A stretch of DNA of 64,000 bases from Balneicella halophila. GTDB lineage: Bacteria > Bacteroidota > Bacteroidia > Bacteroidales > Balneicellaceae. Below the pieces are notes generated by a model that was given only the letters and a program-made list of their open reading frames with translations, was not told the DNA's origin and made no database searches. The position numbers were made by a program, and so were the translations under genes. Where the stretch lies: positions 372,001 to 436,000 of the forward strand of contig NZ_QENZ01000003.1 of the NCBI RefSeq assembly GCF_003096835.1, read 5' to 3'. Shown here piece after piece: positions 8,878 through 47,441 of this stretch (positions are counted from its first letter, which is position 1; every line of letters begins with the position of its first letter).

Positions 8878-8912
8878 AGCCTCTTTCCTTTGCTGGGAAA
8901 GAGGCTTTTTTC
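8878..8912 (+). terminator. Terminator after the TonB receptor
   Basis: A perfect 11-bp stem (AGCCTCTTTCC/GGAAAGAGGCT) with a 7-base loop is followed by a T run. It lies tail-to-tail between the receptor and the OmpA-like gene and may serve both. Confidence 0.9.
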
Positions 8913-8937
8913 GTTAGTTAAATGCTATTTATAATTA

Positions 8938-9627
8938 TTATTCTGCGTTGGCAGCAGCTTCTTTTTTCAATTCTTCACTTGCAATAATTGCTAGCTCAAC
9001 GCGACGGTTTTTAGCCATACCTTCCTTAGTATTGTTATCATATTTCGGTTGTGTTTCTCCATACCATTTTGTACTAATTCTAGAAGAAGAAATTCCTTTA
9101 CTCATTAAAAATGAACTAACTGATTTAGCTCTCTTCTCAGATAAGTTGTAGTTGTAGCTTGCAGGACCTGAACTATCAGTATGTCCTTCTACTAAGATTT
9201 CCGTTTTTGGATAATCGTTTAGAATATTTGCCAATTTATTTAAAGTAGCTGCTGATGAAGCATTGATATCGTGTTTTTCTAGCTCAAAATAAACACCGCT
9301 TGTTTCATCAAAAGTTACATTAATACCTTCCCCTACACGCGTTACTTCAGCCCCAGGTACCTCCTGTTCTATTTCCTCAGCTTGTCTATCCATGCGGTCT
9401 CCAATGTAAGCTCCTGTAGCTCCGCCTACTACTGCACCAATAATAGCACCCAGTGCTGTATTTCCATCTCCCACTTGGCTTCCAATGGCAGCACCTGCAG
9501 CTGCACCACCAGCAGTTCCTATTACAGTGCCACGTTGTTTTTTATTAGATTGCTGAATGGTATCACACCCAACTATAAAAAAGATAGTGGTAATCACACT
9601 TAATAAAATAATTGAAATTTTTTTCAT
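8938..9627 (-). CDS. OmpA-family lipoprotein with glycine zipper
   Basis: A 229-residue protein. The N-terminus is a lipoprotein signal with lipobox FIVGC (Cys21). Residues about 33-75 are a glycine-zipper segment (AAAGAAIGSQVGDG, AIIGAVVGGATGAYIG), which inserts in or associates with membrane. Residues about 110-215 are an OmpA C-terminal domain with the peptidoglycan-binding motif EGHTDSSGPASYNYNLSEKR. It probably anchors the outer membrane to the cell wall. The lipocalin-like gene is 24 bases upstream on the same strand. Confidence 0.9.
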   Translation of the reverse strand: MKKISIILLSVITTIFFIVGCDTIQQSNKKQRGTVIGTAGGAAAGAAIGSQVGDGNTALGAIIGAVVGGATGAYIGDRMDRQAEEIEQEVPGAEVTRVGEGINVTFDETSGVYFELEKHDINASSAATLNKLANILNDYPKTEILVEGHTDSSGPASYNYNLSEKRAKSVSSFLMSKGISSSRISTKWYGETQPKYDNNTKEGMAKNRRVELAIIASEELKKEAAANAE

Positions 9628-9651
9628 GATTTTTTGAATTTTAAAATATAA

Positions 9652-10137
9652 TTATTGATTTATCTTCTGAAATTTATAAATAACATTTACTGGTTCTCCA
9701 TCTACACTTACACTAGAGCGTAGCGTCATTGAGGTATCATCTAAATAATCAATCGTTAAGCGGAAACCATACCCAGTTATATCTTTTTTCTTTTCGTCAA
9801 TAAATTTGAATTGCAATTGCTGAATACCATTTTGGTCAAGAATTGACCATCTAATGTCTCGTTGTCCACCCACACAATCTAATCCTTGGGGAATGTCGTA
9901 ATATCCTGTGCTGTTGATGTGATTGAAATACCATGTACTTCCTCCGAAACATTTTGCATCAGCATCTTTAAATAGTACAGAACTAAATTGACCTTGTGCA
10001 CCCGTATAGTCTACATTGGTAAGTTGCCATGTGCCGTCAACAGTTGTACGATATAGTTTATCTTCCTTACTAAGCGAGCACGAAATGCCTAGGAATGCTA
10101 CGATTACAGATAACATAATTATTCTTTTCATTTGCAT
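9652..10137 (-). CDS. Lipocalin-like lipoprotein
   Basis: A 161-residue protein with a lipobox at FLGISC (Cys20), so it is probably lipidated and exported. The mature part begins with a GTWQLTNVDY motif and has alternating strand-like segments with a WYFN and a final VIYKFQKI strand, as in the small lipocalin-like family of Bacteroidota. Ligand unknown. The start may be the third codon (MKRI) rather than the first ATG. It is likely co-transcribed with the OmpA-like gene. Confidence 0.65.
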   Translation of the reverse strand: MQMKRIIMLSVIVAFLGISCSLSKEDKLYRTTVDGTWQLTNVDYTGAQGQFSSVLFKDADAKCFGGSTWYFNHINSTGYYDIPQGLDCVGGQRDIRWSILDQNGIQQLQFKFIDEKKKDITGYGFRLTIDYLDDTSMTLRSSVSVDGEPVNVIYKFQKINQ

Positions 10138-10298
10138 AATATTTTTTAAGGTTAAAGTGATTTATTATTTAATACTCCAATATGTATGCCAAATATTATC
10201 TAACAAGATAGAAACTTGTGAAACCTACTTTTGTGGATAAAGTTTTATTATTCAGTAAAAACTCGTTATTTTGTAAAAGATTCTAAGTTAAGGATATT

Positions 10299-11639
10299 AT
10301 GAAAATAGTAATCGCCGGTGCAGGTGAGGTTGGAGTGTATTTGGCTCGCATGCTAAGCCATGAGAAACATGACATTACACTTATGGACATCAAGGAAGAA
10401 AACCTTGCCTATGCAAATGCACATTATGAAATATTGACTCAAGTTGGGTCTTCGTCTTCTATTGCAGATTTGCGTGCGGCTGGGGTAAGCAAAGCTAGAC
10501 TTTTCATAGCTGTTACTGAATCAGAAGAGATCAACATTACCTCATGCGTTCTTGCAAAAAAGTTGGGAGCTAAGCGTGTTGTTGCCCGTGTCGATAATAA
10601 AGAATACATACAAAAATCAAATCAGGATATTTTACAAAGTATGAGTATCGATGAGTTTGTATATCCTGAAGCTTTGGCCGCTGAGGAAATCGTAGCATCT
10701 CTAAAGATGACAGGCGCACATTTAATTCACGAATTTATCGATACCGGCATGGTCTTTTTCAGCGTAGATCTAAAAGGGAAATCTCCATTAATAGACAATA
10801 CCCTTGGCGATGTACGTAAATTGTATCCTAGTCGTTCCTATAAAGCTGTTGCAATAAAGAGAGAAGGGAAAACAATTATTTTGAAAGAACATAATCGTTT
10901 TAGAAAAGGAGATTTAATCTTTATAATCAGTAAAAAAGATGCTATCGACGAAGCACTCAAGATTTGCGGTACTGAGGAATTTGCATTAAAAAATATAATG
11001 ATATTAGGAGGTAGCCGTATTGGTCAGCGCACTGCTTCCCTACTTCAACATAAATACAATGTTAAGCTTTTAGAAATAGATAAAGAAAAAAGTTTTGAAA
11101 TTGCAGACTCTATTTCTGATACCCTTGTGGTTTGTGGCGATGGTCGTAATGTTGACTTACTAAGAGAAGAGGGCGTTGGATCAATGGATGTTTTTATTGC
11201 AGTTACAGGGAATTCTGAAACAAATATCTTTTCTTGTCTTTTGGCTAAAAAATTAGGCGTAAAAGCGACGATTGCTGAGGTTGAACATACAGATTTTATA
11301 GATTTAGCAGAGACAGTAGGGGTAGGTACTATGATTAACAAGAAGCTCATTGCAGCAGGGACGATATACAAACATACTACAGATACAGAGATTACACATT
11401 TTAAACAAATAACCGATGCTGAGGCTGATATATTAGAGTTGGTGGCAAAAAAGAATTCACGAATTACAAAAGAACCTTTGGCTGATATCCTTTTCCTTGA
11501 AGAGGCTACAATTGGTGCTATTATTAGAGATGGTGTGAATATTATTGCTTACGGAGATGTACAGATACAAGAAGGGGATAGAGCAGTTGTTTTTTCTATG
11601 CCACATCTGATAAAGAAAGTAGAAAAGTACTTTAATTAA
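10299..11639 (+). CDS. trkA: Trk potassium uptake regulatory subunit TrkA
   Basis: A 446-residue cytoplasmic protein with two copies of an NAD-binding Rossmann domain plus C-terminal domain. The first begins MKIVIAGAGEVGVYLARML, the second at about residue 232 with IMILGGSRIGQRTA. Each is followed by a TrkA_C ligand-binding domain. TrkA gates the TrkH channel in response to nucleotides. It lies 7 bases upstream of trkH, an obvious operon. Confidence 0.95.
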   Translation: MKIVIAGAGEVGVYLARMLSHEKHDITLMDIKEENLAYANAHYEILTQVGSSSSIADLRAAGVSKARLFIAVTESEEINITSCVLAKKLGAKRVVARVDNKEYIQKSNQDILQSMSIDEFVYPEALAAEEIVASLKMTGAHLIHEFIDTGMVFFSVDLKGKSPLIDNTLGDVRKLYPSRSYKAVAIKREGKTIILKEHNRFRKGDLIFIISKKDAIDEALKICGTEEFALKNIMILGGSRIGQRTASLLQHKYNVKLLEIDKEKSFEIADSISDTLVVCGDGRNVDLLREEGVGSMDVFIAVTGNSETNIFSCLLAKKLGVKATIAEVEHTDFIDLAETVGVGTMINKKLIAAGTIYKHTTDTEITHFKQITDAEADILELVAKKNSRITKEPLADILFLEEATIGAIIRDGVNIIAYGDVQIQEGDRAVVFSMPHLIKKVEKYFN

Positions 11640-11646
11640 TGGTATT

Positions 11647-13101
11647 ATGGTAATAAATTGGAAGCTTATCATCAATACTATTGGTCGATTTTTGCTTTTC
11701 GAGACAATATTTCTTCTAATATCCTTGGTTGTAGCTATAGGTTATGGAGAGCATGATGTTTATGCATTTTTATGGACGGCGATAATTACGCTGGTATTAG
11801 GTCTCATTTCATATTATTCTACGAAAAATTCGAATATAAATTTAGGCAAAAGAGAAGGTTATGTTGTGGTAAGCATAGCATGGGTTATATTTTCTTTCTT
11901 TGGTTGCTTACCTTATCTTTTTAGTGGGGCTATTCCCTCTTTTACAGATGCCTTTTTTGAAACGATGAGTGGTTTTACAACCACCGGTTCTTCTATACTT
12001 AACAATATTGAAGAATTGCCACACGGCATTTTATTTTGGCGTTCGTTGACACAATGGCTCGGTGGTATGGGTATCATTGTTTTATTTTTAGCTGTTTTAC
12101 CAAGGTTGGGCGTTGGAGGTAGAGAACTTTTTATTGCTGAGGTGCCAGGACCCTCACCCGATAAGTTAAAACCAAGCATAAAAGCAACAGCAAGACGCCT
12201 TTGGGGGCTTTATCTTGGATTTACAGTGGCTGAGGCTACCTTGTTAACAATAGGAGGCATGGAGATATTTGATGCAGTAAATCATTCTCTTACGACACTT
12301 GCTACAGGGGGATACTCAACAAAACAGGCGAGTATCGGAGCTTATCCATCGCCCTTTATTCAATATGTCATTACTTTATTCATGTTCATCGCTGGAGTTA
12401 ATTTTACCCTATCCTATGCTACTGTAACAGGGAAAGTAAAAAAGTTATGGAAAGATGAAGAGTTTAGATGGTACTTAGGTATTACGGTGCTTTTTACTAT
12501 GCTGGTTGCTTTTGGTTTAACTTTTACAATTGGTGTTAATGGCTTTGAGCAAAATTTTAGGGATTCTTTATTTACTGTTGTATCAATTCTTACGACTACC
12601 GGATATGCAACTGCAGATTATATCCTTTGGGCTCCACACATTGCATTGCTTGTTTTTGTACTTATGTTTTTTGGTGGCTCCGGAGGCTCAACCAGTGGAG
12701 GAGTTAAAATTGTAAGAGTAGTACTTCTGATTAAGAATAGCTACTACGAAATTGTGCGTTTATTGCATCCAAATGCTGTGATTCCTGTGAGATTTAATAA
12801 GCAGAGTGTGAAAAATTCTACGATTGACAATATAATGGCATTTGTCATTCTTTACGCAATTGTTTTTGTTGTCTCTATAGTTATTTTGTCCTTTTGGATG
12901 AGTGGTTTAGACTCTACCTTGAGTGCAGTCGCAACTAGTTTGGGCAATATCGGTCCTGGTTTTGGTCATATCGGTCCAACTGAAAACTTTAGTAATCTAG
13001 CTGATGGTGCTAAGTGGTTCTTGTCATTCCTCATGCTTTTAGGACGCCTAGAATTATTTACTGTTTTAGTCCTATTCACCCCTGCATTTTGGAAACGTTA
13101 G
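11647..13101 (+). CDS. trkH: Trk potassium transporter membrane subunit TrkH
   Basis: A 484-residue membrane protein with about ten hydrophobic segments and the four pore-loop filter regions of the Trk/Ktr family: SGFTTTGSS, TLATGGYST, STTTGYATA-type (ILTTTGYATA) and LGNIGPGFG. It moves K+ across the inner membrane with TrkA as the gating partner. VanZ-like gene follows with a 1-base gap. Confidence 0.95.
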   Translation: MVINWKLIINTIGRFLLFETIFLLISLVVAIGYGEHDVYAFLWTAIITLVLGLISYYSTKNSNINLGKREGYVVVSIAWVIFSFFGCLPYLFSGAIPSFTDAFFETMSGFTTTGSSILNNIEELPHGILFWRSLTQWLGGMGIIVLFLAVLPRLGVGGRELFIAEVPGPSPDKLKPSIKATARRLWGLYLGFTVAEATLLTIGGMEIFDAVNHSLTTLATGGYSTKQASIGAYPSPFIQYVITLFMFIAGVNFTLSYATVTGKVKKLWKDEEFRWYLGITVLFTMLVAFGLTFTIGVNGFEQNFRDSLFTVVSILTTTGYATADYILWAPHIALLVFVLMFFGGSGGSTSGGVKIVRVVLLIKNSYYEIVRLLHPNAVIPVRFNKQSVKNSTIDNIMAFVILYAIVFVVSIVILSFWMSGLDSTLSAVATSLGNIGPGFGHIGPTENFSNLADGAKWFLSFLMLLGRLELFTVLVLFTPAFWKR

Positions 13102-13102
13102 T

Positions 13103-13480
13103 ATGAAATATAGGTTGGTTTGGAATATTGGGCTAATCTGTTGGGCAATTCTTATTTTTGTACTCTGTACAATGCCCGCACCTAAAGTTGATGAGAAAGT
13201 ATTGATTCCTCATTTAGATAAGATTGCACACTTCGGATTATTTTTTGTTTTTAGTATCCTTTTCTTAAGATTCCTAGAAATATCTAGAGGAGTTTCCAGA
13301 ACTCTTTATACTGGCATCGTTTTAATCATTGTAGCGATTTATGGAGGTATTATAGAGTGGTTACAAGAGAGCTATTTTCACCGCTCTGCTGATATTTTTG
13401 ACTGGGGAGCCGATATGATAGGAGCCATAGCTGGCATTGTATTTTACTTTCTGATGTATAAATACTTAGTGAAAAGCTGA
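13103..13480 (+). CDS. VanZ-like membrane protein
   Basis: A 125-residue protein with four hydrophobic segments, a conserved-looking PHLDKIAHFGLFFVF and a late ESYFHRSADIFDWGADMIGAI motif, both hallmarks of the VanZ-like family. Function in most bacteria is unknown; teicoplanin resistance applies to only a few members and should not be assumed. Its last 15 bases overlap the 3' end of the Rrf2 gene on the other strand. Confidence 0.8.
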   Translation: MKYRLVWNIGLICWAILIFVLCTMPAPKVDEKVLIPHLDKIAHFGLFFVFSILFLRFLEISRGVSRTLYTGIVLIIVAIYGGIIEWLQESYFHRSADIFDWGADMIGAIAGIVFYFLMYKYLVKS

Positions 13481-13939
13481 TGAATTCTCTTCATCTAGAA
13501 TGCTGTTTAGGCTTTCATTATTTTCTTCGTTATTTAAAAAGTCTGCAACCGTTCTTGTTCTGAGTGATTCTAAAAGTTTTTCTCTTGCGGGTGCAATCTC
13601 TTCATGAATCCGGCAGTGTTCCCCATGCTCCTCAATGTGGTCTTTACAATTGCATGAGTATAATAGACATTCTTTGAAAACATTTTCTCCTTCAAAAATC
13701 TGAATGATATTAAGCAAAGGAAGTTCATTGGGTTCCGAAGCCAGAACAAAACCTCCATGTGGTCCTTTCGTAGATTTTACAATACCACTATGTGCTAATG
13801 GTTGTAAAACTTTTCCTACAAAAGGTGCAGAGAGTTGTAAATCTTCTGCAATTTTTTTCCCTCCTATCTTTCCGCTCTTCTTATTTTTGGCAAGATAAAT
13901 AACAATTTTCAAAGCATATTTTGAAGCACTTGCTAACAT
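13466..13939 (-). CDS. Rrf2-family transcription regulator
   Basis: A 157-residue protein with an N-terminal winged helix (MLASASKYALKIVIYLAKNK; ...APFVGKVLQPLAHSGIVKSTKGPHGGF) typical of the Rrf2/IscR family. A Cys cluster, ECLLYSCNCKDHIEEHGEHC, lies where IscR-type proteins hold an iron-sulfur cluster; here there are four Cys instead of three. It may sense iron-sulfur status, redox or nitric oxide. Targets are not evident; it stands alone between vanZ-like and buk. Confidence 0.88.
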   Translation of the reverse strand: MLASASKYALKIVIYLAKNKKSGKIGGKKIAEDLQLSAPFVGKVLQPLAHSGIVKSTKGPHGGFVLASEPNELPLLNIIQIFEGENVFKECLLYSCNCKDHIEEHGEHCRIHEEIAPAREKLLESLRTRTVADFLNNEENNESLNSILDEENSSAFH

Positions 13940-13987
13940 TGTATTATAGTTCTTTTCTGAATTTTACAAAGTTAGGAAAATGTTTTC

Positions 13988-14027
13988 AAAAAAAAAGAAG
14001 TTGGAGTCTTTTATTGAACCAACTTCT
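13988..14027 (-). terminator. Terminator after buk
   Basis: On the minus strand a perfect 9-bp stem (AGAAGTTGG/CCAACTTCT) runs into nine T. Confidence 0.88.
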
Positions 14028-14052
14028 AATTTATGTAGTCTCTAAATAATTA

Positions 14053-15123
14053 TTAACTATAAACTTTGGTTTCTACTTCATTTTTTAAGGCTGCCAGACC
14101 ATTAAGCGCTAAAGCTGACATTTCATCTTCTCCTGGTTCCACATGCACTTTTGATATATGCGATACATGCTCTTCTATAAATTTAGTAAGGTGCTTACTA
14201 TATGCTAAACCACCGGTTATAATGATAGCATCAACATCCCCTTTTAGCACTGCACTCATTGCACCTATTTCTTTGGCTGTTTGATATCCCATTGCTTCAA
14301 AGATAAGCATGGCTTCGCTATCACCATCTAATGCGCGGTTTTCCACTTCAAGTCCGCTGTTAGTCCCTAGATAAGAAACAAAACCACCTTCACCGACCAA
14401 TTGTTTTTGCATTTGCTCAATAGTCAGTTCACCACTATAGCAAAGTTGAACTAAAGAACCAGTGGGTAACCCCCCGGAACGTTCAGGAGAGAAAGGACCA
14501 TCTCCGTCCAATCCGTTGTTTACATCTATCACTCTGCCTCTTTTGTGAGCACCTACTGTGACACCACCGCCCATATGTGCAATTATAAGATTTAAATCCT
14601 CGTACTTTTTATTTATCTTTTTTGCATAGGCACGACCTACTGCCTTATGATTTAGCGCATGAAAAATAGATATTCTTTCAAAATAAACATGTCCCGAGAT
14701 GCGTGCAATTTCTTGAAGTTCATCTACTACCACAGGATCTGCGATATAGGCTTTAGCATTATCTATGTTATTAGCAATATCCATAGCAATAAGGGCACCT
14801 AGATTACTTGCATGCTCTTTGACGCCAACTCGGGTTAGATCTTTTACCATAGCATCATTTACCTCATAGACACCAGAGCTTATTGGCTTTATCAAACCTC
14901 CGCGACCTACAATAGCTTTAAAACTTTTAACATCTACACCAGCATGTGCTAATTCTTTTAAGATAATCTCTTTACGAAAGCTGAACTGGTTGCTTATTCT
15001 CTTGAACTTAGCAAGTTCTTCATTAGAATGATGTATGTTTTTTACAAACTGCTCTTTATCATCATGATATATCGCTATCTTGGTAGATGTAGAGCCTGGA
15101 TTAATTGCTAATATTTTATACAT
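14053..15123 (-). CDS. buk: Butyrate kinase
   Basis: A 356-residue acetokinase-family enzyme of the butyrate-kinase subgroup: INPGSTSTKIAIY at the N-terminus, VGRGGLIKPISSG, IAHMGGGVTVGAH and VIDVNNGLDGDGPFSPERSG. It interconverts butyryl phosphate (or a related branched-chain acyl phosphate) and the acid with ATP. No phosphotransbutyrylase (ptb) is adjacent, so the partner must be elsewhere or absent. It is divergent from the acyltransferase gene and has its own terminator. It hints at fermentative metabolism. Confidence 0.93.
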   Translation of the reverse strand: MYKILAINPGSTSTKIAIYHDDKEQFVKNIHHSNEELAKFKRISNQFSFRKEIILKELAHAGVDVKSFKAIVGRGGLIKPISSGVYEVNDAMVKDLTRVGVKEHASNLGALIAMDIANNIDNAKAYIADPVVVDELQEIARISGHVYFERISIFHALNHKAVGRAYAKKINKKYEDLNLIIAHMGGGVTVGAHKRGRVIDVNNGLDGDGPFSPERSGGLPTGSLVQLCYSGELTIEQMQKQLVGEGGFVSYLGTNSGLEVENRALDGDSEAMLIFEAMGYQTAKEIGAMSAVLKGDVDAIIITGGLAYSKHLTKFIEEHVSHISKVHVEPGEDEMSALALNGLAALKNEVETKVYS

Positions 15124-40318: not shown

Positions 40319-41590
40319 ATGAGCGATGTAAACTTTACACGAGAAGATATAGAAATAATGGCGCCGGTAGGCTCTTACGAGTCTCTGATGGCTGCTGTAA
40401 ATGCTGGCGCTAATTCTATTTATTTTGGAGCTTCCAATTTAAATATGCGTGCCCGCTCTGCCAATAATTTCGACTTGGATGATGTCCGAAAAATAGTTGG
40501 TATTTGCAATGAGAATAATGTGAAAAGTTATCTTACCGTCAATACGATATTATATGATAATGACTTGAATAAAATTCATAAATTAATAGATGTAGCTAAA
40601 GAGGCAGGAATTACTGCTATTATTGCATCAGACATTAGTCCTATTCTATATGCTCGGCAGAATGATGTAGAAGTACATATATCTACACAATGCAATATCA
40701 GCAATATCGGTGCTGTAAAGTTCTATGCGCAATATGCTGATGTTATTGTTTTAGCCAGAGAGTTAACGATGCGACAAGTCGCAAAGATTTATCGACAAAT
40801 TCAAGAGGAAGACATCCGCGGACCCAAGGGAGATTTGATTAAGATTGAAATGTTTTGCCACGGTGCTCTATGTATGGCAGTTTCCGGGAAATGCTATATC
40901 AGTTTACACGAGCAAAATTCTTCAGCCAATCGGGGGGCTTGCTTACAATCGTGCCGTAAAGCCTACACCGTTACTGAAAAGGAATCAGGCAATCAACTTG
41001 AAGTAGATAATGAATATATCATGTCACCAAAAGACTTATGCACGATCGACTTCTTAGATTTGTTGTTGAAATCAGGTGTCAGGGTGCTTAAGATTGAAGG
41101 TAGAGCGAGACCTGCTGAGTATGTAAAAACAGTTGTTGAGGCTTATGATAAAGCAGTACACGCTGTTATAGACGGAACCTACAATGAAGAGTTTGCTTTA
41201 GCTCAGAAAGTAAAATTAGAGAATGTATTCAATCGTGGCTTTTGGGATGGTTATTATCTTGGAAGACGTGCAGGAGAATGGGCTACAGCCTATGGTTCAC
41301 AAGCGAAGAAGCGTAAAGTATATATTGGAAAAGGCACGAATTATTTCTCAAAATTGAAAGTCGCGGAGTTTTTGGTAGAAAGTCATGATTTGTCGGTAGG
41401 TGATGAGATTCTTATCACTGGTCCTACCACGGGGGCAGTACAAACTACTGTTAAGGAAATTCGGGTTGATTTGAAACCTGTACAAACCGCAGTAAAAGGA
41501 GAGTCCTTTTCAATGCCTTTAGATATCGTCGTCAGACGTTCAGATAAACTGTATAAACTAGTAAAAGCGACACCAGATTTCTTACAATAG
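40319..41590 (+). CDS. U32-family peptidase/hydroxylase-like protein
   Basis: A 423-residue protein with the U32 signature EMFCHGALCMAVSGKCYIS and a second conserved pair of Cys (NRGACLQSCRKAY); these four Cys could bind an iron-sulfur cluster. Well-studied relatives (RlhA, TrhP) modify RNA rather than cleave protein, so the peptidase label is doubtful. It is likely co-transcribed with the S41 gene. Confidence 0.88.
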   Translation: MSDVNFTREDIEIMAPVGSYESLMAAVNAGANSIYFGASNLNMRARSANNFDLDDVRKIVGICNENNVKSYLTVNTILYDNDLNKIHKLIDVAKEAGITAIIASDISPILYARQNDVEVHISTQCNISNIGAVKFYAQYADVIVLARELTMRQVAKIYRQIQEEDIRGPKGDLIKIEMFCHGALCMAVSGKCYISLHEQNSSANRGACLQSCRKAYTVTEKESGNQLEVDNEYIMSPKDLCTIDFLDLLLKSGVRVLKIEGRARPAEYVKTVVEAYDKAVHAVIDGTYNEEFALAQKVKLENVFNRGFWDGYYLGRRAGEWATAYGSQAKKRKVYIGKGTNYFSKLKVAEFLVESHDLSVGDEILITGPTTGAVQTTVKEIRVDLKPVQTAVKGESFSMPLDIVVRRSDKLYKLVKATPDFLQ

Positions 41591-41654: not shown

Positions 41655-44639
41655 ATGTCTATGAACCGAATCGAACTTTCTAAGCTCTATAAAAGAACAA
41701 AGAGCGACCGTGATATCTTTCATGAGTTAATGCCTTATAAAGTAAAAGATATCTTATTGGTCGCCACCTATTACGATGCCTATTCTATTGTACGTGAAGG
41801 ACAATTTTCTGATAAAATTAACGGTGAATACCTCCAGTTAAATCTATATTCAGCACCTCGTTTTGTAAATGCAACGACAAATGAAGAGGCAATGGAACTC
41901 TTAAAAGAACGCCATTTTGATATGATTATCATAATGACAGGGATGGATAAAGAGCAACCACTATCACTAAGCCAAAAAATTCGTAAATTCAAGCCTGAGA
42001 TTCCACTTGTTCTTCTGGTTAATAATAATAGCGATTTAGCATACTTCTCTCAAGCATCAGATATTGTCAAAAATAATATTGATCAGGTATTCGTGTGGAA
42101 TGGATCTACACGTATTTTCATGGCAATGATAAAGTATATTGAAGATAAAATGAATATCGAAGCAGATGTAAAGCTGGGTGACGTGAGAGTTATCCTTCTT
42201 GTTGAAGATTCTGTTAGGTATTACTCTAGATACTTACCGATGCTTTACACGATGATTATGAAACAAACACAAAATATTATCGATGATGAGGATGATAATA
42301 TTAGTGAAACCCAAAAAATCATCAAAGTACGAGCACGACCAAAGATTATACTCGTAAGCAATTATGAAGCTGCTCAAGAAGTCATTGATAAATACGATGA
42401 AAATTTACTTTGTCTTATTTCAGATGTTCGTTTCCCTCACAATGGAGTAGAGGACGACCAGGCTGGCGTGAAGTTGATAGAATATCTAAGGGAGCAACAA
42501 GTTGATGTACCTGTAATGATGCAGTCAACAGAAGTTGCTAATGCACTAAAAGCCAGTAAACTAAATGCACATTTTATCAATAAAAATTCTGACACATTAG
42601 CGACAGATGTTACCAACTTTTTAATTGATAATTTGGGTTTTGGAAATTTTATTTTTAGAAACCCAAGTGGTACTAAGATAGCTGAAGCTCATTCTATTGA
42701 GGAGTTTGAAGAGATGCTGAGAACGATACCTGATGAATCATTGATATATCATGCTCAGAAAAATGCGCTATCCACGTGGTTGATGGTAAGGGGTGAAGTC
42801 TATGCCGCGAAACTATTGCGTAAACATAACGTGGAGGATTATAAGACGGTAGCTGAAATGAGACAATATATCATGGCGGTTTTCGAAAGATCACGATTGA
42901 AGCAGCTGAATGGACGTATTATTCCCTTTAGAAAAAACTTGATACCTTCCAATCATTATATTCTCCGCTTGGGTAAAGGCTCTTTGGGTGGCAAAGGGAG
43001 AGGTTTAGCTTTTATATCAAATTTTATTTCCAATGTCAATTTCAGCAATCTAATTCCTGAGATGAAAGTAAGAATCCCTAGAACTGCAGTTATTGGGATC
43101 GAAGAATTTAGGAACTTTCTAGAAATTAATGATTTTGAAGCTAAGGTGTATTTAGAACAGAGCTATGAAGAAATTGAGGAATTATTTTTAGCAGCACCCC
43201 TTCCAGAAAAACTGAGTAGCAAGCTTTATCATTTCTTGGAAACTACAAAAGTTCCCATTGCTGTTCGTTCTAGCGGTTTGTTTGAGGATTCCCTTAAACA
43301 ACCTTTTGCAGGAGTCTATCGCACTTATCTGCTTTCCAATAACCAGATGATGATAGAAGAACGTTTGGAGAAACTGGAAGAAGCCATTAAGTTGGTCTAT
43401 GCGTCTATATTTACTGATACTGCTCGCTCTTACTTTAAAGCGGTTGATTACAAAATTGAAGAAGAGCAAATGGCTGTTGTTATTCAGGAGGTAGTTGGTA
43501 ATAACTATAATGGAAAATTTTATCCAACTATCAGCGGTGTTGCTCAATCTTACAATTACTATCCATTTTCCTATATGAAACCTGACGATGGTTTTGCTGT
43601 GATGGCAGTAGGTCTTGGTATGGCTGTAGTGGGGGGTGAGCCTGCTCATCGTTTTTGTCCTAAATATCCTAAGCTTGATAATAAATCTCTGAAGGATCAG
43701 ATAAGAGACTCTCAAAAGTATTTTTATGCAATAGATATGAACAGAACTTCTTTTAATCTAGAAAGAGATGGAGAAAATGCCTGTATTGGTAAATATACGA
43801 TCAAAGAAGCTGAGGAAGATGGAAATTTGAGATTAATCGCCTCGACTTATGACGCACAAAATGATAGATTAGAGCCTGGTATTACAGCTAAATATGGTCC
43901 TAGAGTTATCGATTTTGCTAATATCTTGAAATATAATGCTCTTCCTGTAGCTAAATCGCTTGAACTGTTGTTGCATATCTTTAAACAGGCTATGGGAACA
44001 CCTATCGAGATAGAGTTTTCTATTGATTTGGATACAAAAGATAGACCTACTATTTACTTGCTACAGATAAAACCGCTATTGAGACAGAATGATATTCTTG
44101 AGATAGATTTAGATAGCGTCAGTAGGGATAATATTATGATGCATGCTTCTAATGGTATGGGTAATGGTGAGATCGAAGACATAAAAGACGTTATTTATGT
44201 GGATTTAGCTAAATTTGATAAGTTAAAAACTGAGGATATGGCTCAAGAAATTAGCCAGCTCAATGATAAGATGAAAAAGTTGGATAGAAATTACATCCTT
44301 GTCGGTCCAGGACGTTGGGGTACCCGTGACAAAACCACGGGGATTCCTGTAAGCTGGGCTTCTATTTCCAATGCCAAAGTTATCGTAGAGCAAGGTCTCG
44401 AAAACTTTCCACTAGATGCATCTTTAGGTTCACATTTTTTTCATAATGTTATCTCAATGAATGTTGGTTACTATTCTATGCAACCCAATTCCGACGAAGG
44501 CGATTTCGATTATGACACTTTAGATAATATGCAGGCTGAGGAAACAATAACTTATTTTAGACATATTCACTTTGATAAACCATTGCGTGTATTGATGGAC
44601 GGCAGATCACAAAAAATGCTGGTAACTTATCCTGATTAA
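41655..44639 (+). CDS. Receiver-domain protein with a pyruvate phosphate dikinase-like nucleotide-binding domain
   Basis: A 994-residue protein. Residues about 1-170 look like a degenerate receiver; about 175-330 is a second receiver with the acidic pair (LLVEDS), the phosphoacceptor Asp in LISDVRFP and Lys in HFINKNS. About 430-830 is a PPDK/PEP-synthase ATP-binding region: GKGSLGGKGRGLAF, PIAVRSSGLFEDS and LLQIKPL. The C-terminus (VGPGRWGTRD) is conserved. I see no PEP-utiliser phosphohistidine domain and no pyruvate-type TIM barrel, so it is probably not a true PEP synthase. Such proteins are annotated as PEP/pyruvate-binding in Bacteroidota. Function unknown. Confidence 0.75.
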   Translation: MSMNRIELSKLYKRTKSDRDIFHELMPYKVKDILLVATYYDAYSIVREGQFSDKINGEYLQLNLYSAPRFVNATTNEEAMELLKERHFDMIIIMTGMDKEQPLSLSQKIRKFKPEIPLVLLVNNNSDLAYFSQASDIVKNNIDQVFVWNGSTRIFMAMIKYIEDKMNIEADVKLGDVRVILLVEDSVRYYSRYLPMLYTMIMKQTQNIIDDEDDNISETQKIIKVRARPKIILVSNYEAAQEVIDKYDENLLCLISDVRFPHNGVEDDQAGVKLIEYLREQQVDVPVMMQSTEVANALKASKLNAHFINKNSDTLATDVTNFLIDNLGFGNFIFRNPSGTKIAEAHSIEEFEEMLRTIPDESLIYHAQKNALSTWLMVRGEVYAAKLLRKHNVEDYKTVAEMRQYIMAVFERSRLKQLNGRIIPFRKNLIPSNHYILRLGKGSLGGKGRGLAFISNFISNVNFSNLIPEMKVRIPRTAVIGIEEFRNFLEINDFEAKVYLEQSYEEIEELFLAAPLPEKLSSKLYHFLETTKVPIAVRSSGLFEDSLKQPFAGVYRTYLLSNNQMMIEERLEKLEEAIKLVYASIFTDTARSYFKAVDYKIEEEQMAVVIQEVVGNNYNGKFYPTISGVAQSYNYYPFSYMKPDDGFAVMAVGLGMAVVGGEPAHRFCPKYPKLDNKSLKDQIRDSQKYFYAIDMNRTSFNLERDGENACIGKYTIKEAEEDGNLRLIASTYDAQNDRLEPGITAKYGPRVIDFANILKYNALPVAKSLELLLHIFKQAMGTPIEIEFSIDLDTKDRPTIYLLQIKPLLRQNDILEIDLDSVSRDNIMMHASNGMGNGEIEDIKDVIYVDLAKFDKLKTEDMAQEISQLNDKMKKLDRNYILVGPGRWGTRDKTTGIPVSWASISNAKVIVEQGLENFPLDASLGSHFFHNVISMNVGYYSMQPNSDEGDFDYDTLDNMQAEETITYFRHIHFDKPLRVLMDGRSQKMLVTYPD

Positions 44640-44751
44640 AGTGTTACTTAAAGATTTTACCATAACTTTATGTTATGGTTTATAATTATTTCGTATTTGG
44701 TTTGGTTATGCTGGAGTCTTATTTTTGTCACCAAATTTAATTGGTACGATA

Positions 44752-45907: not shown

Positions 45908-47362
45908 TTAATAATGGTGAAAGCGACGCACCTTACCTATATATTTTGCTAAGCGGATAACTTGTTGTGTATAACCATATTCATTATCATACCATACATA
46001 CAGTATTGCATCCTCACCATCTTCGGTAACGATGCTTGCATTGCTATCGAAGATAGAAGCTGCAGAAACCCCAACAATATCTGACGATACTAGTTCATTG
46101 CTCACGGCATATTTTATTTGCTCTACGAGTTTACCATTTAGTGCAGCTTGTTTTACTGTATCTTTCAAATGTTCTAGATCAGTCTTTTTCTTAAGCTTGA
46201 TATTTAAGATTACTAAAGACCCATTGGGGACTGGTACACGAATGGCATTTGAAGTAAATTTTCCTGCTAACTCAGGTATTGCTTTTGCAACGGCTTTGCC
46301 CGCTCCAGTTTCTGTAATTACCATATTCGTTGCAGCTCCTCTACCTCTACGATATTTCTTATGATAATTATCCACTAAATTTTGATCATTCGTATAGGCA
46401 TGTATGGTTTCTATATGTCCTTTTTCAACCCCATAGGCGTCTTCTATGACTCTAAGAATAGGGATGATGGCATTGGTGGTACAGGAAGCTGCTGAAAAGA
46501 TATCTGTATCATCAGGAGAGAAGTCTAAGTGGTTTACTCCATATACGATATTAGGAATGCTGTCTTTTCCTGGAGCAGTTAATATGACTTTAGCTACACC
46601 TTTCGATTTTAGATGTTGTGAAAGTCCCGTAGTATCTCTCCATACTCCAGTATTATCAATTACTATGGCATCATTAATTCCATACTCAGTATAGTCCACT
46701 TCATCAGGACTGTTAGCATTAATCAAATATACTGTCATACCATTGATAATCAATGCTCTTTGTTCTGGTACAGCGACAACAGTTCCTCTGAAATCACCAT
46801 GAACGGAGTCATTTCTTAATAATGAGGCTCTTTTATGAATATTTTCGGGAGTTAATTCTCCTCGTATCACAATAGCACGCAGGCGCAGTTGATTTTGATT
46901 GTCAACTTTACTTGCTAAAATTCGGGCAGCTAAGCGACCGATACGTCCAAAACCGTACAATACGACATCTCTGGGAGTGGGCTTTGGGGTATCATGAATT
47001 CCTCTTAGCTCTTTTTTCACAAAATCAGCCATTTTTTCACCTCCTTTTTCTTGTTGCTCAAGATATTCGTAAGTGAGTTTTCCCACATCCAATCTTGCAG
47101 AAGGTAGGTTTAATTCTTTAATGGTCTTTGCCATATCCAACACATCTTGGATAGTAATTGGTTTACCAATGAATTTTGTGGAATAATCAATAAGTCCGTG
47201 GATTTCTGCAACACTCTTATCTATTAATTGGTTGCGAAAAAGGATGAGCTCCGTAGAGTCCTCGTACCATAAATCATTCACAATTTTAATAAACTCAACA
47301 GCTGCTTGGTTTTTCTTGCGCTGTGACTGAATCTCATTTTGTAACAGGTCTTTATCCATCAT
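45908..47362 (-). CDS. gap: Glyceraldehyde-3-phosphate dehydrogenase, long form
   Basis: A GAPDH of about 484 residues, about 150 longer than the common form. The NAD-binding Rossmann start (VVLYGFGRIGRLAARIL) comes only after a helical N-terminal region (about 1-130). The catalytic loop is FSAASCTTNAIIP. The dehydrogenase interconverts glyceraldehyde-3-phosphate and 1,3-bisphosphoglycerate. The frame is open to 47404, but a double ATG at 47362/47359 (MMDKDLLQNE) looks like the true start. Long GAPDHs are known in Bacteroidota. Confidence 0.9.
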   Translation of the reverse strand: MMDKDLLQNEIQSQRKKNQAAVEFIKIVNDLWYEDSTELILFRNQLIDKSVAEIHGLIDYSTKFIGKPITIQDVLDMAKTIKELNLPSARLDVGKLTYEYLEQQEKGGEKMADFVKKELRGIHDTPKPTPRDVVLYGFGRIGRLAARILASKVDNQNQLRLRAIVIRGELTPENIHKRASLLRNDSVHGDFRGTVVAVPEQRALIINGMTVYLINANSPDEVDYTEYGINDAIVIDNTGVWRDTTGLSQHLKSKGVAKVILTAPGKDSIPNIVYGVNHLDFSPDDTDIFSAASCTTNAIIPILRVIEDAYGVEKGHIETIHAYTNDQNLVDNYHKKYRRGRGAATNMVITETGAGKAVAKAIPELAGKFTSNAIRVPVPNGSLVILNIKLKKKTDLEHLKDTVKQAALNGKLVEQIKYAVSNELVSSDIVGVSAASIFDSNASIVTEDGEDAILYVWYDNEYGYTQQVIRLAKYIGKVRRFHHY

Positions 47363-47441
47363 GATATTTGAGGTTTTTTGAAAACTATACAAATATAGCT
47401 TCATTTCGATGAGAATAGTAATTTTACTCGTTAAATTTTAA

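Follow-up and report, generated by a model that had tools for sequence, protein, structure and literature searches.

What does a cell do with a protein that carries response-regulator receivers in front of a pyruvate phosphate dikinase (PPDK)-like core? The question is raised by a single gene of Balneicella halophila, lying within the 64,000-nucleotide stretch of contig NZ_QENZ01000003.1 that was analysed (hereafter, the window), from a genome assembly of 2.09 Mb that is 98% complete. The nearest named relatives of the encoded 994-aa protein (Table 1) belong to Marinifilum and Labilibaculum, with 61–65% identity in the best segment. The original prediction placed the gene in isolation behind its own promoter, neither of which is borne out: the ORF begins 64 bp downstream of the end of a co-directional gene at 40319–41590, a promoter scan of this gap, itself a weak test in this phylum, returned no sigma-70-like promoter, and a U32-type gene also precedes a relative in locus L065. 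From their sequences, we take the upstream neighbours to be this U32-type gene and an S41-type protease gene. The terminator-like hairpin on the 3' side is weak evidence for a transcript end, because five such hairpins were observed in the region against 3.2 expected from the consensus scan. The minus strand at 45908–47404 carries a 498-aa ORF, presumably glyceraldehyde-3-phosphate dehydrogenase-like, with an N-terminal extension of more than 100 residues.

Table 1. Features of the receiver–PPDK-like gene, with positions in the window
Feature	Position	Strand	Basis
Receiver–PPDK-like protein CDS, 994 aa	41655..44639	+	Single ORF, conserved full length in relatives
Degenerate (pseudo-)receiver, residues ~30–172	41742..42170	+	Receiver-like strand/helix order in model; weak second Response_reg stretch; lacks acidic pair
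Intact receiver, residues ~176–330	42180..42644	+	PF00072; VIA Z 11–15 to many receiver domains; conserved residues
Asp257 codon, presumed phospho-acceptor	42423..42425	+	Invariant in 56 sequences; role presumed from receiver anatomy
Helical linker, residues ~333–420, weakly DUF5752-like	42651..42914	+	PF19027, E 0.03
PPDK_N ATP-grasp domain, residues ~434–813	42954..44093	+	PF01326; VIA Z 22–24 to rifampin phosphotransferase ATP domain; ATP-site residues
Lys447 codon, ATP-site lysine (GGK)	42993..42995	+	Invariant in 56; same in 8/8 PEP synthases aligned
Swivel-like C-terminal domain, residues 815–994	44097..44636	+	Model pLDDT 90.3; VIA ranks phosphohistidine swivel domains highest (Z 5–6)
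His927 codon, candidate phosphohistidine	44433..44435	+	His in 90/90 C-terminal sequences; putative role
Terminator-like hairpin 3' of the ORF	44659..44679	+	Consensus scan

One good and one degenerate receiver had been predicted, and the good one is the second. Pfam reports a Response_reg match (PF00072, E = 6.3 × 10−12) with its best stretch at residues 208–310, and the acidic pair, Asp, Ser/Thr and Lys of a receiver are all present: across an alignment of 56 sequences, Glu184, Asp185, Asp257, Ser291 and Lys310 are invariant or at least 90% conserved. The degenerate one is the first. Neither HisKA nor HATPase_c was matched by the protein in Pfam at E 1, such that it does not have the make-up of a sensor histidine kinase; the genome itself contains 12 HATPase_c matches. 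The linker that follows the receivers is more readily recognized in the relative L007, where PF19027 reaches 23.8 bits, just over its cut-off of 23.

After residue 430, the only Pfam match is to PPDK_N (PF01326; residues 443–813, E = 1.2 × 10−42, 146.8 bits against a cut-off of 27), the ATP-grasp of the PEP-synthase kind that had been expected. When every third row of the 56-sequence family alignment (19 of 56) was aligned with eight PEP synthases, Gly445, Gly446, Lys447, Arg538, Ser539, Ser540, Glu544, Asp545, Glu787, Gln804 and Pro807 proved common to both groups. The exceptions are position 785, which is Glu in the family and Asp in PEP synthase, and position 806, which is Arg in PEP synthase and, within the family, Arg in 10 rows and Lys in nine, including the window protein. 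Apart from these two positions, the domain has the ATP-site residues of PPDK and PEP synthase and, judged by its sequence, the ATP site looks competent. The pyruvate barrel, which the original prediction could not discern, is absent: the last 181 aa match no Pfam family, even at E 10, and the protein ends after the swivel-like domain. A standard PPDK layout was considered and rejected, since there is no PEP/pyruvate barrel. All NCBIfam matches of the protein are far below their respective cut-offs (for NF041857, 30.3 bits against a cut-off of 999).

The original prediction also held that no phosphohistidine domain was recognizable, and this is correct at the level of sequence, but not of predicted structure, where a swivel-like domain occupies the expected place. 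Profile–profile comparison of the C-terminal domain with the His domains of PPDK, PEP synthase and Enzyme I gave a probability of 0.1; phosphohistidine HMMs scored directly against it did no better than against shuffles, and a TSHA-type His motif was undetectable by sequence or HMM comparison. The AlphaFold2 model, built from the alignment of 56 relatives (mean pLDDT 86.5, pTM 0.75), was compared with solved structures: as a single unit, residues 420–994 match PEP synthase (2ols, residues 10–467; Z 26.4, 357 residues, 4.8 Å), rifampin phosphotransferase (5hv3, residues 7–866; Z 25.5, 384 residues) and PPDK (1dik, residues 6–511; Z 18.9, 353 residues). Matches confined to the ATP-grasp cover only 221–287 residues; the one-unit alignments are longer and, therefore, the C-terminal domain adds residues at the position of the phosphohistidine swivel. 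Folded alone, this domain (pLDDT 90.3) has residues 755–867 of rifampin phosphotransferase as its top VIA row (Z 6.1, 113 residues, 3.7 Å), together with PPDK residues 381–510 (Z 5.9), the pyruvate kinase C-terminal extension (Z 5.8 and 5.6) and Enzyme I (Z 5.0). Because other proteins, namely, chaperonin apical domains, glutamate carboxypeptidase II and LD-carboxypeptidases, also appear at Z 4–5, the swivel match is only suggestive; Z values below 8, taken alone, could reflect a common arrangement, and Foldseek with this domain returned nothing at E 0.001 or better. Among 56 relatives, the domain has a dense run of invariant residues: Gly884, Gly886, Arg887, Trp888, Gly889, Asp892, Gly896, Trp901, Glu912, Ser923, Gly925, His927, Phe928 and Phe929. 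In the model, His927 lies at the start of a predicted helix (residues 926–934), presumably as does the His of the TSHA motif in PPDK. Given the weak structural match, the missing profile match and the invariant His927, we therefore label the domain swivel-like in position, a suggested similarity that is seen in the predicted structure and is absent from sequence profiles, and we infer a phosphohistidine role for His927.

The protein belongs to a family that is present in 29 of the 31 genomes of a sample of the order, including that of the window, which has one family gene, and, across the phylum, in 69 of 395 sampled genomes. A core is common to its four kinds: a (the window clade), b (a paralogous receiver clade), c (the core alone, ~580 aa) and d (1065 aa, differing at the N-terminus and, in the case of L049, ending in an NTP_transf_2 domain). 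Many clade-a relatives have one to several copies of an N-terminal module of ~130 aa, which the window protein lacks; a search with this module reached three proteins identified by Pfam as sensor histidine kinases (L221, L227 and L230). The module, present in L007 (943–1440) and L017, has no Pfam name and is repeated in some family members. In two Aminicenantes loci (L070:111–3219 and L071:411–3525), the family core and the receiver part are encoded by two distinct ORFs that overlap and stand in reverse order. A conserved signalling role, as had been predicted, fits a core that in relatives carries a sensor module also found in histidine kinases, and is probably correct.

The main clue to function, which lay beyond the view of the original prediction, is the gene neighbourhood of the family. 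By Pfam and NCBIfam, the conserved neighbour is glutamate dehydrogenase (GDH), of two classes: one scoring above the NADP-GDH cut-off and a remote one below all cut-offs. A first sample of 62 genomes contains 98 family genes; a PF00208 GDH gene is found no more than 5 kb from 64 of them, spread over 38 of the genomes (kind a, 7/15; b, 36/56; c, 8/9; d, 13/18). This count leaves out G006:C327 and G012:C179:2653-2973, both fragments, as well as ten short matches that are weak (E 1e-7 or worse) and that by their coverage are receivers and other PPDK_N proteins. The linkage rate is uncertain, because many of the unlinked cases are on contigs without any GDH gene; within the window clade, eight of the 15 members are unlinked, several of them on short contigs. 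As controls, we took the non-family PPDK_N genes of the first-sample genomes: among the matches listed, none of 54 is within 10 kb of GDH. A second sample, of 35 genomes (32 genera) not used before, gave 49 of 58 family genes, in 30 of 35 genomes, within 5 kb of GDH, with gene ends set by a fixed-length extension from the C-terminal match; 43 of these 49 are on the GDH strand, and all five genomes of the same order are linked. In both samples, PF00208 rows weaker than ~E 1e-30 were excluded; both come from one phylum, and their genomes are not independent.

The pairing is, moreover, recurrent. Family–GDH pairs occur both on the same strand and divergently, and a GDH tree of 48 rows has at least six changes between linked and unlinked labels on well-supported branches; thus, the link was gained or lost several times. 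Each of the loci L074, L075, L078 and L079 has two family genes next to GDH genes and, in two of these loci, L074 and L079, the interval between the family genes contains a histidine kinase and a LuxR-type regulator. Kinds c and d are found after the remote GDH class in one gene row, without receivers, in L049:454–3663, L073:3109–9562 and L077:6597–12834. In L065, a cluster at 8895–14781 surrounds a second family gene with genes for a protein with an NTP_transf_2-like domain, a calcineurin-like phosphoesterase and a cNMP-binding protein with a Crp-type HTH; in L073 and L077, the neighbours of kinds c and d likewise include relatives of the phosphoesterase. At 10 of 20 relative loci, the upstream pair encodes a 2-oxoacid:acceptor oxidoreductase with an alpha subunit above the TIGR03710 cut-off (substrate putative). 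The sources of all ten are Marinifilum, Labilibaculum and a Marinifilaceae MAG, close relatives that count as approximately one event; L076 has such a pair as well, close to GDH and to two family genes. In the genome of the window, a GDH gene was looked for near the family gene and is absent: the only clear one is 621 kb away and belongs to a GDH clade most of whose members are unlinked. The linkage is, therefore, a property of the family only, and any role involving GDH is carried over to the window protein from its relatives.

Our preferred reading, held tentatively and at somewhat below an even chance, is that the 994-aa protein is a phosphotransferase or regulator under receiver control whose target is GDH or the 2-oxoglutarate/glutamate node. 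It would be a signalling protein and not a metabolic PPDK: a histidine kinase would phosphorylate Asp257 of the receiver, an input place that other modules may take or share in relatives, and the ATP-grasp of a truncated PPDK-type machine would move a phosphoryl group from ATP to His927 of the swivel-like domain. The phosphoryl group, or the loaded state, would then go to a partner protein instead of to pyruvate. In the family, this partner would most likely be GDH, and the protein would therefore switch the 2-oxoglutarate/glutamate node through GDH activity or, in Marinifilum-type relatives, perhaps through the neighbouring 2-oxoacid oxidoreductase. Such a reading draws on the linkage counts of the two samples, on the recurrence of the link with two GDH classes and several GDH clades, on the core-attached module shared with sensor histidine kinases and the histidine kinase gene in the L074 and L079 clusters, and on the intact receiver, the ATP-site residues shared with PEP synthase, the unvarying His927 (90/90) and a swivel-like fold at the right place. 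It is opposed by the 621 kb between the two genes in the window genome, by swivel matches that are weak (Z ~6) and not found by Foldseek at E 0.001, by the lack of sequence similarity to phosphohistidine domains, and by Lys in place of the PEP synthase Arg at position 806. The regulatory phosphotransfer enzyme under receiver control of the original prediction likewise fits the intact receiver and the ATP-site residues, with catalysis and phosphorylation as predictions.

The same linkage would be expected of a non-catalytic regulator, in which the ATP-grasp and swivel-like domains would sense adenine nucleotides (energy) and bind GDH allosterically, with the receiver tuning them. GDH is classically under nucleotide control, and the swivel is divergent and lacks the usual motif, but Lys447, Arg538, Glu787, Gln804 and His927 are kept without exception, beyond the needs of mere binding, and we regard this explanation as unlikely. 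Somewhat less probable again is a small-molecule phosphotransferase resembling rifampin phosphotransferase, which, controlled by its receiver, would phosphorylate a metabolite from the glutamate/2-oxoglutarate pool: rifampin phosphotransferase is among the best structural matches and both GDH and 2-oxoacid oxidoreductase, found next to family genes, are enzymes of metabolism, yet between the ATP-grasp and swivel-like domains there is no domain to hold an acceptor.

The presence of a His and a receiver in one chain, and of the two halves as overlapping ORFs in Aminicenantes, would suit a self-contained phosphorelay, whereby the PPDK-type core replaces the histidine kinase by phosphorylating its own receiver (His927 to Asp257), which relays the signal. 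Kinds c and d, however, have no receivers and yet retain the core and the linkage to GDH, and some clusters contain ordinary histidine kinase genes, making this improbable. Marginally less credible still is that GDH marks only a functionally meaningless housekeeping neighbourhood of these lineages and that the target of the protein lies elsewhere. Some family genes, that of the window among them, are not linked to GDH, and other lineages have U32-type and 2-oxoacid oxidoreductase neighbours; the pairing is nevertheless repeated with different GDH clades, on the same strand and divergently, and none of the 54 controls among the matches listed is linked.

Returning to receiver-controlled action on GDH or its node, the adjacency of family and GDH genes suggests an undescribed switch on nitrogen metabolism, although gene neighbourhood does not demonstrate physical interaction with GDH. 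A bolder form of the idea, which we consider doubtful, is that the family represents signalling kinases of a new class, in which PPDK-type chemistry would have been moved off pyruvate to give a protein phosphotransferase that covalently switches GDH, with exchangeable receivers, histidine-kinase-type sensor modules or nucleotidyltransferase domains, and would serve Bacteroidota nitrogen control in the way that uridylylation/adenylylation cascades do elsewhere. From its sequence and model, we rate the 994-aa protein as an enzyme of the PEP-utilizing kind turned into a putative signal-controlled regulator. A widespread, unexplained Bacteroidota family gains a testable partner, and the adjacent family–GDH gene pairs lend themselves directly to co-expression and assay. 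Were GDH to be controlled in this way, the family would reveal the means by which these bacteria gate the ammonium/glutamate node, and PPDK-type phosphotransfer would here be directed at a protein. A search of the open-access literature found no report of a link between the family and GDH.

Among known systems, PEP synthase and PPDK share with the 994-aa protein a PPDK_N ATP-grasp with ATP-site residues, directly after which the 994-aa protein has a predicted swivel-like domain; it differs in having no barrel, no detectable TSHA-type His motif, and receivers in front. Rifampin phosphotransferase from Listeria (5hv1/5hv3) provides the best structural match to the ATP-grasp, and its His domain heads the VIA rows for the C-terminal domain, but the 994-aa protein lacks the antibiotic-binding domain between the two and, again, has receivers in front. 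Tandem-receiver response regulators such as PleD, which is among the Foldseek rows, likewise have two receivers in a row, one of them degenerate, but there the output is a GGDEF domain and here a PPDK-like core. PknG is a protein kinase that acts on an inhibitor protein and is not known to have a PPDK core or a receiver. As a works-like comparison only, the PknG–OdhI pair of Corynebacterium is reported to act as a phosphorylation switch dedicated to the 2-oxoglutarate node (PMC9769921). Pyruvate phosphate dikinases are mentioned among the effector domains of Asp-less receivers in PMC4395418. The closest precedent is a census (PMC5847659) that gives REC with pyruvate phosphate dikinase in two passages, one as a 'Bacteroides-like combination', with three Heimdallarchaeota members. 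These presumably have the same architecture as the 994-aa protein, and the two passages mention them as census entries only, giving no GDH link, C-terminal domain or function. The REC–PPDK combination is already known from the census, and the link to GDH is the new result presented here.
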